A stretch of DNA of 64,000 nt from Oscillospiraceae bacterium (GTDB taxonomy: Bacteria > Bacillota > Clostridia > Oscillospirales > Ruminococcaceae), in assembly GCA_017468365.1 (NCBI GenBank), contig JAFUIS010000021.1, positions 1 to 64,000 on the forward strand, read 5' to 3'. Below, one piece after another: positions 9,400-44,308 of the stretch (positions within the stretch are counted from its first letter, which is position 1; every line of letters starts with the position of its first letter). The notes under the pieces are model-generated. The model had not been told where the DNA came from. It worked only from the letters and a program-made list of their open reading frames with translations, and ran no database searches. The position numbers and the translations under genes were made by a program.

Positions 9400-9575
9400 G
9401 ACAGCGTTTGCGGGAGCAAACTGCAGGGGTGTAAAACTTTTCTTTCAGGTGATGTCTCTTGCGGTGCCCAAAATATTCTGCGGCATAAAGCCTTGAATAT
9501 TTTGACCGCGGCGCCAAACCTTGCTCGCTGTTTCGCCCACTGGGCGCGCTTCGCAAGCTTTGCTCGGTTTCTTTT
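9400..9575 (-). repeat. dispersed repeat family D, copy 2 (inverted)
   Basis: The core 9457-9529 is the reverse complement of 6218-6290 with few differences. The adjacent hairpin GCGCCCAGTGGGCGC type replaces the CGTCC/GGACG hairpin of copy 1, so both sides of the stem changed together. With copy 1 it brackets noc and the four-gene island in inverted orientation. Confidence 0.8.
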
Positions 9576-9613
9576 GGTTACAAAAGAAATGGGGTATCAT
9601 AAAAGATTACTAT

Positions 9614-12255: not shown

Positions 12256-12297
12256 CCTCCTCGGAGGAGGTGTCACCGAAGGTGACGGAGGAGGGAT
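12256..12297. repeat. hairpin repeat family C, copy 1
   Basis: Two hairpins in tandem: CCTCCTCGGAGGAGG (self-complementary), then GTCACC-GAA-GGTGAC, then GGAGGAGGG. It lies between mnmG and the DUF559 remnant. Confidence 0.85.
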
Positions 12298-12301
12298 TTT
12301 A

Positions 12302-12382
12302 TCAAAGCCTCCGTTTTACAATTTTGTCTATATAAACACAAACGTTTTCAAAATTATAATTTATATCTTTATTTAAAAGCCG
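12302..12382 (-). pseudogene. 3' remnant of a second DUF559 nuclease gene
   Basis: On minus this reads RLLNKDINYNFENVCVYID then KIVKRRL and a stop. It matches the last 27 residues of the intact DUF559 protein encoded at 12939-13304 (RFLNKDINYNFENVCAYID... KGRIL). A 30-base stretch is identical in DNA. The rest of the gene is missing and its place is taken by repeat copy 2, so only the C-terminal tail survives. Confidence 0.85.
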
Positions 12383-12410
12383 CTCTATAAACCTCGGCTT
12401 ATGTAAATTA

Positions 12411-12455
12411 CCTCCTCGGAGGAGGAGGTGTCACCGAAGGTGACGGAGGAGGGAT
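12411..12455. repeat. hairpin repeat family C, copy 2
   Basis: The same element as copy 1 with one extra GAG triplet between the two hairpins; the second stem is GTCACC/GGTGAC. It separates the DUF559 remnant from the ParB-like gene. Confidence 0.85.
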
Positions 12456-12464
12456 TTTATCCCA

Positions 12465-12869
12465 TTAATTATCATTGAAAAATAAAACTGCTTCCTGCAT
12501 TCCGTCGCACCAGTTATCCCATTTTGCAACAAATTCATCATGTGGCAAAATCCGGTGCTCAAGGTCTGAAATATTTTTTATTCCCCGGCCCTCACAGGCT
12601 TTTATACAAATTTTATATTCAGTAATTCCGATTTCTTCTTCCGAATCCCAAACAAGCGGAACTTTTTCAAGCCCGGAAAGAAACGCCGCAAGGGCTCTTG
12701 TGTGTCCATCGGTAAAAAATATTTTTCCGCCGTGCTCAAAAATCGGCAAAGGCTCAAAATTTGAAAGGTCTTTTGGATTAAACCAACTTTTCACTCTTTC
12801 AAGTTTTTTTGCGGAAATATAAAACTGGGAAGGCTGAATATCCAAAAGTTTGATTTCGTCAATATTCAT
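12465..12869 (-). CDS. ParB/sulfiredoxin-fold domain protein
   Basis: A 134-residue stand-alone protein carrying the short ParB-like signature TDGHTRALAAF (compare GERRWRAA of ParB) near residue 60, preceded by a LLDIQPSQFYIS strand and followed by VPLVWDSEEE. There is no HTH or dimerisation domain, so it is not a partition protein. Fold assignment is by motif only and the role is unknown. Start: ATG at 12869 with TTGGAG upstream; a TTG at 12884 behind GGAGGT of repeat copy 3 is an alternative. It lies between two family C hairpins. Confidence 0.65.
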   Translation of the reverse strand: MNIDEIKLLDIQPSQFYISAKKLERVKSWFNPKDLSNFEPLPIFEHGGKIFFTDGHTRALAAFLSGLEKVPLVWDSEEEIGITEYKICIKACEGRGIKNISDLEHRILPHDEFVAKWDNWCDGMQEAVLFFNDN

Positions 12870-12893
12870 GCTGAAATTCTCCAAATGTATTTA

Positions 12894-12938
12894 CCTCCTC
12901 GGAGGAGGAGGTGTCACCGAAGGTGACGGAGGAGGGAT
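12894..12938. repeat. hairpin repeat family C, copy 3
   Basis: CCTCCTCGGAGGAGGAGG followed by GTCACC/GGTGAC hairpin and GGAGGAGGG. Its minus-strand end gives GAGGAGGTAA, an SD-like sequence for the ParB-like gene. Confidence 0.85.
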
Positions 12939-13304
12939 TTATAAAATCCTCCCTTTAACGATTTTATCAATGTAAGCGCAAACATTTTCAAAATTATAAT
13001 TTATATCTTTATTTAAAAACCGCAAAACATCAATTCCGCAAGTTTTTAAATATTCCGTTCTCTTTTTGTCATATTCGATTTCATCATGTTCATAATGCTG
13101 AGCGCCGTCAATTTCGATAACAAGATTTGCTCTCCTGCAATAAAAATCAACGATATAATTTCCGATAACTCGCTGCCTTGAAAAATGAATATCATAATTT
13201 CTCAAAAACCGATACCAAAGCTTATTTTCCTCCGGCGTCATGTTTTTTCGCAGCTCCCGGGACAGTTCCCTCAATTTTGGGTTTGCTTCAAAATTTCTCG
13301 GCAA
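12939..13304 (-). CDS. DUF559 endonuclease-fold protein
   Basis: A 121-residue protein of the DUF559 family, a restriction-endonuclease-like fold related to very-short-patch repair nucleases. Visible features are the N-terminal RELRKNMTPEENKLWYRFLR, the core RQRVIGNYIVDFYC with the candidate catalytic Asp, and LVIEIDGAQH with the second acidic pair. No activity is known for most members. The TTG at 13304 is chosen because GGAGGAGGG of repeat copy 4 precedes it and family members begin near this point. A degraded sister copy lies at 12302-12382. Confidence 0.85.
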   Translation of the reverse strand: MPRNFEANPKLRELSRELRKNMTPEENKLWYRFLRNYDIHFSRQRVIGNYIVDFYCRRANLVIEIDGAQHYEHDEIEYDKKRTEYLKTCGIDVLRFLNKDINYNFENVCAYIDKIVKGRIL

Positions 13305-13310
13305 AACTAT

Positions 13311-13357
13311 CCCTCCTCCGTCATCGCTTTGCGATGCCACCTCCTCCTCCGAGGAGG
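13311..13357. repeat. hairpin repeat family C, copy 4
   Basis: Opposite orientation to copies 1-3. The second stem is CATCGC-TTT-GCGATG instead of GTCACC/GGTGAC; both arms differ but still pair. It abuts the mnmE stop codon and supplies GGAGGAGGG ahead of the DUF559 gene. Confidence 0.85.
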
Positions 13358-14722
13358 TTATTTTCCCACGCAGAATTTTTCGAATACTTTTTCGATAACC
13401 GCGTCGCTGGCTTTTTCGCCGGTAAGTTCATAAAGCGCGTCAAGAGAAGTTTCGATGCAAATTCCCACCGCGTCCAGCGTCATTCCGAAAGCAACGGCAT
13501 CCAAAGCTTCGTCAATGGCTTTTTTTGCTCTGCGAACGCAGTCCAGCTGGCGTTCGTTTGCCATAACAGGTTCCGCCGGGTCAAGGTCTGCGGTTTTGAG
13601 CACCCTTGCCAGCGCCTCGCGGAATTCATATTCTCCGTCGCCTTTTGCGGCGGAAATGGTGACCACGTTTTCAAAACCTGCCTTCACCGCGTCAACGTCC
13701 GCCTGAATTTCAAGGTCGGATTTGTTGATTACCGCAACGGCGGGTCTGCCTTTAAGCTTTTCGATAAGTTCAAAATCCGTTTCGTCAAAAGGTCTGCTGG
13801 AATCAAAAACCGCAATAACAACGTCGCAGCGCTCAATTTCGGTGTTTGCCATGTCAACGCCTATGCGTTCAACAGTGTCCTCGGTGTCCCTAAGACCCGC
13901 CGTATCAAGAAGGCGAATGGGAATATCCCCCACGAGCACCGATTCCTCAACAACGTCGCGGGTCGTTCCGGCAATTTCTGTAACAATGCTTCTGTCCCGG
14001 CCGGAAATAAGGTTCATAAGGGTGGATTTTCCTACGTTGGGTTTTCCGGCGATGACGGTGGTGGCTCCTTCGCGGATAACTTTTCCCGCGTCATAGGTAT
14101 CCATAAGTCGTTTGAGCACCGCTTCGGTCTCTTTGAGCACCGTTTCAAGATGTTCGTCCGAAAGTTCCTCAACATCCTCTTCCGGATAGTCGCTCCATGC
14201 AGCAAGGTGTGTCTCAAGCTCCGTCAGTTTTTCGGTAACGGAGCGGATTTTTTTATAAAGTGCGCCGTCGCGCATTGCAAGTGCGGCTTTTCCGGCGCTG
14301 GCGGATTTTGCGGAGATCATATCCATAACCGCTTCCGCCTGGGTAAGGGTCAGTTTTCCGTTAAGAAGCGCCCTTTTGGTAAATTCGCCGGGTCCCGCAA
14401 GACCTGCACCGCAATCAAGGGCAGCTCTGAGCACGCGTTTTAAAAGCGCGGGGCTTCCATGGCAGGAAAACTCCACGGTGTTTTCGCCGGTAAAGCTTTT
14501 CGGCGCAAGAAAAACCGTCGCCACCGCTTCGTCAATGTCGCCTTCGGCGTCAAAAACTCTTCCGTAAGCGCAGGAATAACCGGAAAGGGTCGAAAGTTCC
14601 TTTCCGCCCTTAAAAGGTCGGAACATCTTTTCGCCGATTGCGACCGCTTCCTCACCGGAAATTCTTATTACGCCAAGTCCCGAAGCGGAAAGGGGCGTTG
14701 ATATTGCGGCAATGGTGCTCAT
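13358..14722 (-). CDS. mnmE: tRNA modification GTPase MnmE
   Basis: A 454-residue GTPase partner of MnmG. The N-terminal tetrahydrofolate-binding domain begins STIAAISTPLSASGLGVIRI. The inserted G domain carries GKPNVGKSTLMN (P-loop), the switch II motif DTAG and NKSD. The protein ends FCVGK, the C-[IV]-G-K motif whose Cys is required for modification. The ATG at 14722 has GGAGGT 7 bases upstream; the frame extends to 14764 without an SD. Confidence 0.98.
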   Translation of the reverse strand: MSTIAAISTPLSASGLGVIRISGEEAVAIGEKMFRPFKGGKELSTLSGYSCAYGRVFDAEGDIDEAVATVFLAPKSFTGENTVEFSCHGSPALLKRVLRAALDCGAGLAGPGEFTKRALLNGKLTLTQAEAVMDMISAKSASAGKAALAMRDGALYKKIRSVTEKLTELETHLAAWSDYPEEDVEELSDEHLETVLKETEAVLKRLMDTYDAGKVIREGATTVIAGKPNVGKSTLMNLISGRDRSIVTEIAGTTRDVVEESVLVGDIPIRLLDTAGLRDTEDTVERIGVDMANTEIERCDVVIAVFDSSRPFDETDFELIEKLKGRPAVAVINKSDLEIQADVDAVKAGFENVVTISAAKGDGEYEFREALARVLKTADLDPAEPVMANERQLDCVRRAKKAIDEALDAVAFGMTLDAVGICIETSLDALYELTGEKASDAVIEKVFEKFCVGK

Positions 14723-21259: not shown

Positions 21260-22371
21260 TTTTCAGAAAACTCGAGCTTTCGGATTTTCGTAACATCGAA
21301 GATCTGGAAATGATACCCGGCGAAAAGGTAAACATAATCTGCGGCGAAAACGCCCAGGGAAAAACAAACCTTATGGAAGCCCTTTGGCTTTTTACCGGCG
21401 CAAAATCTTTTCGCCAGACAAAAGATTCGGAATTTATCCGCTTCGGAACAGAAAAAGCAAGGCTTAAAGCCGATTTTTATTCCGAAAACCGCGAACAGAA
21501 CGCCGAAATAACCTTTTCCCCTTCAAAAAGCATAAAGAAAAACGGAATCGATATCAAAACTTCGGCAGAATATGCCGGAACCTGCGGCGGAGTTGTTTTT
21601 TCTCCTTCCCATATGAATCTTTTCCGTGACGGCCCAAAGGAAAGACGCCGCCTTGCGGATACTTCCCTCTGCCAGCTTTATCCAAAATATATCTCGGTGC
21701 TCAGCGATTATAACAAAGTTCTTCTTCAAAGAAACACCGTGCTCAAAGACGCAAGATATCACAGCGGTCTTATCGATATGCTGGACGTTTATGACGAACA
21801 GCTTGCCCGCCTTGGCGGAAACATCATAAGAACAAGGGTCGCTTATTGCGAAAGCCTTAACAAAAAAGCCGCCGAGATATATAAAGGAATGTCCGCCGGA
21901 CGTGAAGAATTCTTTGCGGAATATAAAACCACCGTCCTTTCCGAAGATGAGCACGCCGAAAGTTCTTTGAGCACCGCAGATTGGGCGCAAAAACTTTACA
22001 ATGCGCTCCAAACTTCCCGCAATTTTGATTTTGAGCACGGTTCCACCTCCATGGGACCCCACCGGGACGATATCGAAGTCACCCTTGACGGAATGCCCGT
22101 CCGTTCATTCGGTTCCCAGGGTCAGCAGCGAAGCTGCATCCTTTCGCTCAAACTGGGCGAAGCAAAACTTCTGGGCGAAGCCATGGGCGAACCCCCTCTC
22201 ATTCTTCTTGACGACGTTATGAGCGAACTTGATTCGGTCCGCCGTGACTATATTCTCAATTCCATAGGTGAAAGCCAGATTTTTCTCACCTGCTGCGATA
22301 AAGAACTTTTTTCCGGCCTTTCAGAAGGAAAAGTCTTTATCATGGAAAAAGGAAAAATAAAGGAAACCTGA
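21256..22371 (+). CDS. recF: DNA repair/gap-filling protein RecF
   Basis: A 371-residue SMC-like ATPase. Walker A is [15 protein letters not shown] (about residues 31-45), the ABC-type signature lies in [16 protein letters not shown], and Walker B is [13 protein letters not shown]. It helps load RecA at gaps with RecO/RecR. The start overlaps the S4 gene (ATGA), so the two are coupled. Confidence 0.97.
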
Positions 22372-22380
22372 TTTTTACCG

Positions 22381-22434
22381 TAGGGACCGTCGTCCTCGAC
22401 GGTCCGCGGAACGCTGAGGACAGCGTTCCCTACA
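22381..22434 (+). repeat. hairpin repeat family A, double element
   Basis: Starts TAGGGACC and ends GTTCCCTACAG. The first hairpin is ACCGTCG/CGACGGT, the second AACGCTG/CAGCGTT; the stems differ in sequence but both pair perfectly. It lies between recF and remB. Confidence 0.8.
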
Positions 22435-22471
22435 GAAAAAGAAGGGAGCCTATAAAAAAGGAGGAACTTTA

Positions 22472-24722
<2,251 letters not shown>

Positions 24723-25633: not shown

Positions 25634-25683
25634 ACCTTCCCAGAGGGGAAGGTGGCAAAACCGAAGGTTTTGACGAAAGAGGG
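25634..25683 (+). repeat. hairpin repeat family C, variant
   Basis: CCTTCCCAGAGGGGAAGG followed by CAAAACC-GAA-GGTTTTG and GAAAGAGGG. The arrangement matches copies 1-4, but both stems have different, still complementary, sequence. Confidence 0.7.
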
Positions 25684-25713
25684 ATAACCCAATTACCAGG
25701 AGGGTAATAAAAA

Positions 25714-25761
25714 TCCCTCCTCCACCGTCTTCGACGGTCCCCCTCCTCCTCTGAGGAGGTA
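25714..25761 (-). repeat. hairpin repeat family C, copy upstream of gyrA
   Basis: CCCTCCTCC, CCGTC-TTC-GACGG, then CCTCCTCCTCTGAGGAGG. It ends 25 bases before the gyrA start. The variable stem again differs but pairs. Confidence 0.8.
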
Positions 25762-25786: not shown

Positions 25787-28339
25787 TTGGAAGAAAACGA
25801 AAAGAAAATTCCCGAAGCCGCTATCGAACTTGAAGACGATATGCCCAAGGCAAAACTTATAAACGTGGATATCGAAAAAGAGATGAAAAAATCCTTTCTG
25901 GATTATTCCATGTCCGTAATCGTTTCCCGTGCTCTTCCGGATGTACGCGACGGTTTGAAACCGGTACACAGAAGAATCCTCTATACCATGTATGAAAACG
26001 GTCTTGAACCGTCAAAACCCTATAAAAAATGCGCCGCCACAGTCGGCGACGTTCTCGGTAAATATCATCCCCACGGCGACGCTTCCGTTTATGACGCAAT
26101 GGTCCGTCTTGCCCAGGATTTTTCCATGAGAGCGCCCCTTGTTGACGGCCACGGAAACTTCGGTTCCATCGACGGCGACCCGCCTGCAGCTTACCGTTAT
26201 ACCGAATCCCGAATGAGCAAAATGGCAATAAGAATGCTCACAGATATTGATAAGGAAACCGTAGATTTCACCGGAAACTATGACGACAGCCGCAAAGAGC
26301 CGGTCGTTCTTCCTTCCAAATATCCGAACCTTCTTGTCAACGGTTCCGTCGGTATCGCCGTTGGTATGGCAACCAATATTCCGCCCCACAACCTTCGCGA
26401 AACCGTAGAAGCCACCTGCTGCCTTATCGATAATCCGGATGCCACCCTTGACGACCTTATGGAACATATCAAGGGACCCGATTTTCCCACCGGCGGCGTG
26501 ATTATGGGAAGAGCGGGAATCCGCGCAGCTTATGCCACCGGCAGAGCAAAGCTCATTCTCCGTTCCCGTGCCGAGATCCAGGAATGGAAAAACGACCGCT
26601 ACCGCATTGTAGTAACCGAAATCCCCTATATGGTCAACAAGGCAAGACTTATCGAAAGCATTGCCGACCTTGTTAAAGAAAAACGCGTAGAGGGAATTTC
26701 CGACCTTCGCGATGAATCCGACCGCGAAGGACTTCGCATCGTCATCGAGCTCAAGCGCGACGCCAATGCCCAGGTCGTTCTCAACCAGCTTTATACCTAT
26801 ACCCAGCTTCAGGATACCTGCGGCGTTATCATGCTCGCTCTTGTTAACGGCGTTCCGAAGGTCCTTCCTCTTAAAGAAGTCATTCAGCATTATATCGACT
26901 TCCAGCGCGAAGTCATCACCCGCCGCACCAGATTCGAGCTCAAAAAACTCCGCGAGCGCGAACATATCCTCGAAGGTCTCAAAATTGCCCAGGATAACAT
27001 CGAAGAAGTCATCCGCATCATCAGAAGCGGTAAGGACGACGCCGAAAACCGTCCCAGACTTATGGAGCGCTTCGGTCTTTCCGAAATCCAGGCAAACGCA
27101 ATTCTCCAGATGCGCCTGGGCCGTCTTTCTTCCCTCAACCGCGAGGCAATGGAAAACGAACTTGCCGAGATCCGCGCAAAAATTGCAGAACTCGAAAACA
27201 TTCTCGGCGATATCCACCTTGTTGATGAGATCATCAAAACCGAAATGCGCGAAATTGCCGATAAAAACGGCGACGACCGCCGCACCGGAATCGAAACCAT
27301 CAGCGGCGAAATGGATATGGAAGACCTTATTCCCGTGGAAGACAGAGTTATCACCCTTACCCACTTCGGTTATATCAAAAGCCAGCCCGTGGATGCTTAT
27401 AAGGCACAGCGCCGCGGCGGACGCGGTATTTCCGGCATGACCAGACGTGACGAGGACTACGTCGAAAGCCTCTTCACCGTCTCCACCCATGACTATATCC
27501 TCTTCTTCACCGATAAGGGCAAAGTCTTCCGCATCAAAGGCTACGAAATTCCCGAAAGTCAGCGTGCCGCAAGGGGTACCAATATCGTCAACGTTCTTCC
27601 GCTTGAACAGGACGAAAAAGTTACCACCCTCATCAAGCTTTCCGGAATCATCGATGAAGAGAGCACCTATCTCACCATGGTCACCAAGGCCGGCGTCATC
27701 AAGCGTACCCGCCTTTCCCAGTACCGCAACGTACGCAAAAGCGGTCTTAACGCCATCAGCCTTGACGAGGGCGACGAACTTAAATGGGTTCGTCTTACCG
27801 GCGGCGAAGACGAACTTGTGGTTGCCACCAAAAAAGGCATGGCCATCCACTTTAAAGAGACCGACGCCCGTGAACTGGGAAGAACCGCACGCGGCGTAAG
27901 AGCTATCGAACTTGCCGAAGGCGACGAAGTTGTCGGCATGGAAATCGTTGAGGAAGGCAAAAAACTTCTTACCATCAGCGCCGGCGGCAAAGGTCGCCGC
28001 ACCGAATTTGCGGATTACCGAATCCAGCAGCGCGGCGGTAAAGGTCTTCAGAACTATAAGACCGACGAAGTTGCCGGAATCAAGGCTGTTTGCGACGATG
28101 ACGATATCATCGCAATCAGTTCCGACGGCATCATAATCCGCCTTTCCGTAAACGAAGTCAACGTCCAGCAGCGCGGAGCTTCCGGCGTAAAGGTAATGCG
28201 CCTTGCCGCTGAAGATTCCAGAGTCGTTTCCTTCACCGTTGCACCCAAGGGCGAAGACGATGAAGAAGCCGAAGGCGAAGAAACTTCCGAAACCGCAGAA
28301 TCCGAAACCGAAGTTTCCGAAGCCCCCGCCGAGGAATAA
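25787..28339 (+). CDS. gyrA: DNA gyrase subunit A
   Basis: An 850-residue GyrA. The breakage-reunion domain has the catalytic Tyr in [10 protein letters not shown], and the C-terminal half forms the DNA-wrapping beta-pinwheel with the GyrA box QRRGGRG (near residue 545). The tail is acidic (about the last 30 residues). The TTG at 25787 is supported by CGGAGG 8 bases upstream. The quinolone-resistance region reads [12 protein letters not shown]: Ala at the position of E. coli Ser83. Confidence 0.99.
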
Positions 28340-35395: not shown

Positions 35396-35438
35396 AAGGA
35401 CACCTCTGTATATAAAAAAGTATAAATCCGGATAAAAG

Positions 35439-35482
35439 CCTCCCTTGTCAAAGGGAGGGGGACCGCCGAAGGCGGTGGAGGG
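35439..35482 (-). repeat. hairpin repeat family C, copy upstream of mfd
   Basis: CCTCCCTTGTCAAAGGGAGG then CCGCC-GAA-GGCGG and GGAGGGA. It lies between pth and mfd. Confidence 0.8.
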
Positions 35483-35493
35483 ATTCAAACCCC

Positions 35494-44110: not shown

Positions 44111-44308
44111 AAACCCCCTGCGTTGTGCGAGAATCGTCCGTTTTTTTAATCCAACAAATCGTTAAAAGGGAGTTTTGCTCCGTCCTTGTAATGTAGGCCC
44201 CGGCTTTTTTGGCATCGGGGGAACGTGAACCGGACGGGAAAACTTACCCACCTTGTCTTATGACCGGGTTTCAACGATGGACTGTTCGGCAATGCGGGGT
44301 ATTTTTTT
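44111..44308 (+). ncRNA. ssrS: probable 6S RNA
   Basis: A ~190-nt rod-like RNA. The 5' ACCCCCTGCGTTGTGC pairs with the 3' GGCAATGCGGGGT, which is followed by a T7 tract. Inside, GTCCGTT pairs with AACGATGGAC. An unpaired bubble follows on both sides, then CCGTCC with GGACGG and CCCCG/CGGGG lead to the apical loop. This terminal stem / large internal bubble / apical stem layout is that of 6S RNA, which binds sigma-A RNA polymerase. Assigned by structure only. Confidence 0.65.

Follow-up and report, generated by a model that had tools for sequence, protein, structure and literature searches.

Between mnmG and mnmE of an Oscillospiraceae bacterium (assembly GCA_017468365.1, contig JAFUIS010000021.1) lie short genes separated by copies of one structured repeat, which raises the question of what these copies belong to and how they came to this site. 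A reading made from the sequence alone had proposed an integron-like array in which different cassettes are exchanged through hairpins, with no recombinase visible. Analysis of the window, i.e., the whole stretch of 64,000 nucleotides (nt) containing the locus, and of related genomes points instead to the gene of a DUF559 nuclease together with the two repeats on either side of it (R4-DUF559-R3, ~450-500 bp). This unit is probably a small mobile element, consisting of a nuclease gene bounded by inverted intrastrand-triplex motifs, and is best explained by a logic like that of REPtrons, exercised by an unrelated nuclease with triplex ends. In the following, G-numbers denote genomes of the family set (G000 being the genome that holds the window) and L-numbers denote loci.

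The repeat-bounded nuclease gene between mnmG and mnmE

The interval between the start of mnmG (12227, minus strand) and the end of mnmE (13358, minus strand) contains four repeats, a DUF559 gene, a ParB-like open reading frame (ORF) and a DUF559 remnant:

12256-12299, plus strand: repeat R1, a short variant
12300-12383, minus strand: DUF559 remnant, the C-terminal end of a second gene
12408-12457, plus strand: repeat R2
12465-12869 (longest ORF to 12884), minus strand: ParB-like ORF, between R2 and R3
12891-12940, plus strand: repeat R3, the triplex motif flanking DUF559 at its 3' side, in the opposite orientation to R4
12939-13304 (longest ORF 12939-13340), minus strand: solo gene for a DUF559 PD-(D/E)XK nuclease (PF04480, 1.3e-31)
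13309-13358, minus strand: repeat R4, the triplex motif flanking DUF559 at its 5' side

The repeats at this site are 44-50 nt long. R1, R2 and R3 are direct repeats, whereas R4 is inverted and differs in its second hairpin. The DUF559 gene is thus enclosed by an inverted pair, R4 and R3, which presumably bounds the mobile unit; the sequence-only reading had overlooked both this pair and DUF559 as the recurrent occupant of such pairs. R4 is composed of a distal palindrome (H1), a second hairpin (H2, GGCATCGC/GCGATGAC) and a third, purine segment (D, GGAGGAGGGAT), which faces the gene and could be used as Shine-Dalgarno sequence for DUF559. That the repeat is present in four copies was upheld, its core 30-mer having three matches in the window as compared to none in 100 shuffles. 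Its description as a two-hairpin element agrees with single-stranded folding of three of the four copies (z -5.2 to -5.3), but missed the purine segment mirroring a hairpin arm; the predicted fold of the shortest copy differs and is weaker (z -2.9). A motif search of G000 retrieved the four copies at this site and one variant at C7:98345, and no Rfam family reached the gathering threshold at the locus.

The intact DUF559 gene recognized earlier is corroborated by its Pfam match (see list) to a family labelled 'protein of unknown function'. Its start codon is probably TTG 13304, because this position aligns with the MPRN start of a relative. The nuclease motif DF-x(8-11)-[EV]-x-DG-xx-H is present in 103 of 106 sequences, and profile matches to solved structures comprise 3hrl (1.3e-22) and the mobile intron protein 3r3p (9e-4), besides weak matches to homing-endonuclease families. 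The ratio of nonsynonymous to synonymous substitution rates (dN/dS) is 0.07 between the orthologues of G000 and of G154, a genome of the same genus; for five of the six possible pairings of four G154 copies it is 0.04-0.35; the DUF559 protein is therefore maintained by purifying selection. The remnant at 12300-12383 encodes the final codons of a second DUF559, as had been supposed: together with its repeat it shares 99% identity over 129 nt with a repeat plus DUF559 C-terminus in G154.

Repeat architecture and triplex code

Application of an extraction rule (two hairpins followed by a purine run) to the window and 100 related loci yielded 167 two-hairpin elements, block-shuffled copies of the 100 loci only one. 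Following H2, the purine segment D mirrors the 3' arm of H1 (e.g., CCTCTCCC...GGGAGAGG, H2, GGAGAGGG), and the 155 elements that could be parsed represent 43 distinct arm/D pairs. In the purine-motif triplex code, G goes with G, A with A or T, and C with T. Read in mirror order, this code fits 316 of 344 positions (mean of 2000 shuffles 221.5, standard deviation 7.8, maximum 256), whereas neither the direct reading (146; shuffled mean 158) nor the antiparallel complement (151; shuffled mean 157) exceeds the shuffles. In 15 of the 16 pairs with C at the first arm position, D carries a T. Among loci selected for DUF559, triplex motifs numbered 197 in 319 kb (1, 0 and 0 in shuffles) and, in a second count, 72 (again 1, 0 and 0).

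Judged by their sequence, the repeats are members of the intrastrand triplex motif class of Holder et al. (PMC4666352), and may form triplexes inside the cell. The motifs known as TM, TMECO or PIT likewise combine a pyrimidine-purine hairpin with a purine third strand and occur intergenically in multiple copies, sometimes as inverted pairs; they differ in that the second loops of TMECO have three bases (TTA or CCG), while the window repeats have a variable hairpin as loop 2 (PMC4666352). TMECO oligonucleotides fold into triplex in vitro, and intrastrand triplex motifs have been linked to instability by an unclear mechanism; the same study found TMECO not to be associated with mobile elements, and DUF559 is unmentioned in its main text (PMC4666352). 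Outside the Clostridia, loop 2 of the repeats studied here is also often three bases long (CTA, TTA, CTG, CCG), being longer or a hairpin in some cases. Work on PIT elements is reportedly also due to Hoyne et al.

Association of the repeats with DUF559 genes

The association was assessed in the family set (197 genomes, 27 of them with DUF559 matches, weak and fused matches counted), in a scan of named genomes (80 loci kept among 566 relatives, mostly Clostridia), in plasmids, phages and E. coli, and in a phylum set, counting triplex motifs within ~280 nt of a solo DUF559 domain. Motifs on both sides were found in named genomes for 45 of 75 solo DUF559 (control ORFs: 10 of 454), in the family set for 6 of 19 (2 of 104), in plasmids, phages and E. 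coli for 9 of 23 (6 of 122) and in the phylum set for 2 of 20 (0 of 79). The corresponding values for at least one side are 66/75 vs 159/454, 15/19 vs 23/104, 20/23 vs 43/122 and 5/20 vs 6/79. These counts supersede an earlier census of hairpins on both flanks (64 of 77 DUF559 vs 97 of 418 control ORFs). The motifs are preferentially oriented towards the gene, both upstream (89 vs 40) and downstream (91 vs 44).

Conversely, DUF559 lies within 52 of the 55 neighbouring repeat pairs that face inward at a distance of 200-900 nt (window 1/1, G154 loci 5/6, named set 39/39, plasmids and phages 7/9), although this census is biased towards DUF559 because most loci were fetched for it. The exceptions are L258, a gene-less cluster of several repeats, and pairs in L189 and L206. 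On the genome level, a narrow repeat pattern was present in 24 of the 197 family genomes, with zero hits of the backward control in the genomes listed; it occurred in 9 of 16 genomes possessing a full-length DUF559 (E 1e-24 or better) vs 15 of 181 others (p 9e-6).

The nuclease and its repeats also vary together. Protein identity correlates with repeat-arm similarity across 106 sequences (Mantel r 0.50; permutation maximum 0.21, 0/2000) and within the Clostridia subset (r 0.38, n=65; permutation maximum 0.26, 0/2000). On average, the repeats of eight G154 elements resemble those of the nearest relative in a different genome (mean similarity 0.85) more than those of other clades within G154 (0.62). 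A TPWE protein motif tied to repeat type was dropped as a candidate, having too few cases (6 of 106).

Association in other phyla

The association extends to Proteobacteria, Cyanobacteria and Deinococcota, as seen in 24 loci (21 loci from 30 of 37 plasmid or chromid records, two phage contigs and ycjD of E. coli K-12). A DUF559 gene with matching inverted motifs lies between paaD and paaZ of Deinococcus psychrotolerans, another with a motif at each end between sufB and sufC of Sphingomonas, and motifs stand on both sides of DUF559 on pSymB of S. meliloti; the region beside E. coli K-12 ycjD holds a motif of the TMECO kind. The automatic scan missed three of the 24 loci (L189, L199 and L204), imperfect motifs being discernible by eye in L189 and L199.

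The two fecal phage contigs (L198, L199) have DUF559 near such repeats and could be transfer vehicles. DUF559 genes of cyanobacterial plasmids (L187-L189, L204) adjoin genes for DUF1156 or pglX methylases, as if inserted near or into them. On a Pseudanabaena plasmid (L206), the DUF559 domain and triplex motifs on both sides of it are contained in one long annotated frame, possibly by in-frame insertion.

Filled and unfilled sites in related genomes

G154 has 12 DUF559 matches. Four closely similar copies occupy different sites (synonymous divergence dS 0.11-0.20, five of six pairs measured), and cease to resemble each other beyond the outer edges of H1; exceptions are a copy whose left H1 is missing and another in which the left repeat differs. 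Comparison of ten G154 units with G000 allowed placement of both flanks for nine (only the right flank for L045), and G000 is without DUF559 at all nine placed sites: nothing comparable is present at seven, a RAYT gene at another, and at the last a repeat of GTAG type, recognized by eye. Three of the nine sites were also resolved in G061 of the same genus, where DUF559 is absent, too.

The spot in the G000 locus L090 (positions 3362-3901 of L090), where the RAYT-type gene is accompanied by GTAG repeats, has been used by two unrelated nuclease-repeat systems, since in G154 it is filled by DUF559; the gene scores over the cut-off for Pfam Y1_Tnp and with 60 bits below the cut-off of 80 for NCBIfam REP_Tyr_transpos. 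At 22262-22568 of the window, another DUF559 unit site in G154, a GTAG-type palindromic repeat and a leftover AAGGGAGCC half-arm were recognized by eye. At 9500-9600 the window contains repeats of a different family, similar to the sequence that the G154 unit L047 has joined to its truncated left end.

Presence/absence variation at the mnmE-mnmG site, expected by the sequence-only reading, was indeed found across relatives (mnmG found in all ten searched, mnmE not found in one; five junctions read). The junction of G061 (~350 nt) has neither DUF559, nor a ParB-like gene, nor a repeat of the triplex class; the gaps of G107 and G076 are short, G171 contains a single triplex-class repeat (by eye), and G006 (L267) has a different short ORF and no triplex-class repeat (by eye). 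In G154, the ParB-like ORF lies between two repeats, followed by DUF559, repeats of other kinds and a final repeat. The G061 junction (L261) contains another sequence with a palindrome, in two copies.

Proposed mechanism and relation to known systems

Each end of the proposed element consists of the distal pyrimidine-purine hairpin H1, a connector and the gene-facing purine third strand D, which can lie antiparallel in H1; the connector is hairpin H2 here and often a 3-nt loop (TTA, CTA, CCG) in non-Clostridia. An end that becomes single-stranded in replication or repair could fold, upon which the cognate nuclease would recognize the folded end or the palindrome and cut, and repair or replication would copy the unit, or a lone repeat, to a new site. 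Cutting of the repeat by DUF559 would thereby drive copying and movement, and the nuclease itself is the best candidate for the recombinase that had been declared invisible, a statement that may be wrong. Gene-less repeats would be non-autonomous copies, in the way that REPs are for RAYTs, and the window would hold one unit together with a second, decayed copy and additional repeats, piled up between mnmG and mnmE around the ParB-like gene.

REPtrons have flanking inverted REPs and REPIN pairs. With these TnpA-REP/RAYT systems the element shares a small nuclease gene, structured repeats, gene-less copies and nuclease-repeat co-evolution (PMC8266576, PMC3733652), and features of this type found here are inverted flanking repeats with gene-less copies as well as nuclease-repeat co-variation. 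It differs by having a PD-(D/E)XK DUF559 between the repeats instead of an HUH (Y1) transposase, and by repeats that carry a third-strand segment and no GTAG tag (by eye). In common with insertion sequences, inverted ends bound the DUF559 unit. Triplex repeats and DUF559 nucleases are known parts; their union as one element appears to be new, a link between them not having been found in print by a search that left most subscription literature outside.

The wider proposal is evenly poised between holding and failing: that a new class of minimal mobile elements reaches from Bacillota to Proteobacteria (E. coli ycjD included), Cyanobacteria and Deinococcota, in which a Vsr-like DUF559 endonuclease recognizes intrastrand-triple-helix ends and is the source of the PIT/TM repeats, each nuclease lineage having its own triplex code.

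Contrary evidence

Several observations weigh against a mobile unit with triplex ends. Regarding the triplex, in vivo footprinting gave no sign of it in E. coli (PMC4666352). Regarding co-variation, two of the eight G154 elements run opposite to it and four of the eight belong to one clade, and part of it may stem from shared ancestry. Control ORFs are often motif-flanked on at least one side (159/454, as given above), partly because neighbours share repeats. In the phylum set, motifs accompany the four closest relatives but just one of the 16 distant solo DUF559 and none of the seven long-frame ones; long-frame DUF559 of the family set have them in 0 of 6 cases (2 of 2 in the named set and 1 of 1 on a cyanobacterial plasmid). 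E. coli K-12 ycjD has a motif on the fabI side only.

At the genome level, the enrichment of the narrow pattern decreases to 6/16 vs 15/181 (p 0.003) if gene-adjacent copies are discounted by eye, and the pattern misses 7 of the 16 DUF559 genomes, G000 with its CCTCCTC-type repeats among them. No DUF559 was detected in the repeat-rich genomes G136 (20 copies) and G029 (24 copies), the repeats of which may be relics or otherwise mobilized; in G136, seven of ten loci opened (L241-L250) contain an inverted repeat pair with the palindromes innermost (by eye).

As to movement, the dS values of the four G154 copies, given above, show that these did not arise recently. At the six placed sites other than those resolved in G061, a gain by G154 cannot be told apart from a loss by G000, and some could represent loss. 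No target-site duplication was seen at the compared G154/G000 sites, the flanks of which are 7-27% diverged. Among the records listed (plasmids; one listing with 30 of 139), no empty sites with the same flanks were evident for the units of S. meliloti, Azospirillum and Deinococcus. E. coli provided no clean empty site either, because a TetR/RND operon follows fabI in the two opened strains that lack ycjD beside it (L238 and L239; K-12 being L185), and ycjD and eefRABCD are described as alternatives at the fabI site (PMC12817139).

Alternative explanations

The strongest competitor, possible though doubtful, holds that DUF559 is a homing-type endonuclease cutting pre-existing solo repeats, where homologous repair from a filled copy installs the gene, and that the repeats spread by other means. 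This would suit the kinship to the mobile intron protein 3r3p, the weak homing-endonuclease matches and the repeat-rich genomes without the gene, as well as the traces retained (by eye) at three of the nine unfilled G000 sites, i.e., degenerate H1-like palindromes at two and a half-arm at one. The other six, however, are traceless (by eye), which suits transposition, and repeats are enriched in full-length-DUF559 genomes even away from the gene (6 of 16 vs 15 of 181). Unlike the Vsr-related homing endonucleases, with which it shares the 3r3p match, the DUF559 unit is bounded by repeats and found at many sites in one genome (G154), with no intron or intein noted. Movement may take place either by transposition of the unit or by homing into existing repeats.

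It is improbable that the repeats merely mark or protect a Vsr-like DUF559 repair or restriction gene, as part of shared regulation or defence, without a role in movement. Vsr is among the matches of YcjD profiles (PMC1189080), the genes listed as induced in a methylation mutant include a DUF559 gene of Deinococcus (PMC6712171), and in Caulobacter DNA damage by the DUF559 protein VsrA is linked to loss of the cognate methylase (PMC12907096), so that a DUF559 member can apparently damage cellular DNA. These observations speak for such a gene; the absence of DUF559 from all nine resolved orthologous sites, the dispersal of related copies and the gene-less repeats in the same genomes speak against this reading.

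Still less probable is mobilization of the repeats by a RAYT or other transposase with DUF559 as cargo. The check for RAYT genes had a mixed outcome: one does occur, with GTAG repeats, in G000 itself at the homologue of a DUF559-filled G154 site (L090), yet the repeats at this gene are of a different, GTAG-tagged kind, and Y1/RAYT-type genes (PF01797) are not associated with the repeats studied here, being present in 9 of 24 repeat-positive vs 73 of 173 repeat-negative genomes (p 0.83).

Exchange of integron-like cassettes by a site-specific recombinase, to which the alternation of short genes with structured repeats at mnmE-mnmG (one gene per repeat interval, as between attC sites), the presence/absence variation and the different short ORF in G006 had lent some plausibility, can hardly be retained, as one recurrent gene occupies all but three of the 55 inward pairs, a repeat of this kind is missing at the G006 ORF (by eye), and the integron integrase TIGR02249 exceeded the cut-off in none of three same-genus genomes (weaker tyrosine-recombinase matches were obtained in all three and in 14 of 14 controls).

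Further repeats and neighbouring features

Three gene-less repeats are located elsewhere in the window:

25635-25688, plus strand: repeat of two-hairpin architecture, CCTTCCC type, before a gyrA-like ORF at 25787
25713-25761, minus strand: triplex motif, inverted relative to the preceding repeat
35437-35487, plus strand: triplex motif close to the start of one ORF (mfd-like) and ahead of another (pth-like)

The first two are dissimilar repeats in inverted orientation, which face each other ~25 nt apart upstream of the gyrA-like ORF with no gene between them (25635-25761) and possibly represent an emptied unit; segment D of the former breaks the triplex code at two of eight positions.

The ParB-like ORF, previously called a ParB-fold gene, is real in so far as it recurs in G154 with 93% identity (no match in G061), but its name found no support, since family searches gave no assignment (0/5). 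It is flanked by the direct copies R2 and R3, a distant relative in G038 is without such a repeat (by eye), and it is probably a passenger or neighbour outside the element. The window furthermore contains a partial 16S rRNA at its edge (1-296) and a 6S RNA gene (44112-44304), both according to Rfam.

Implications

Joining the triplex repeats with DUF559 provides a testable origin for these repeats and a candidate enzyme for the instability associated with them. The combination further points to triple-helical structure as a means of encoding a DNA-recognition signal, the support for which consists so far only of covariation. If true, the RAYT-REP way of life would have been invented a second time by an unrelated nuclease, and the comings and goings of the unit may explain the spread of a puzzling class of bacterial repeats.

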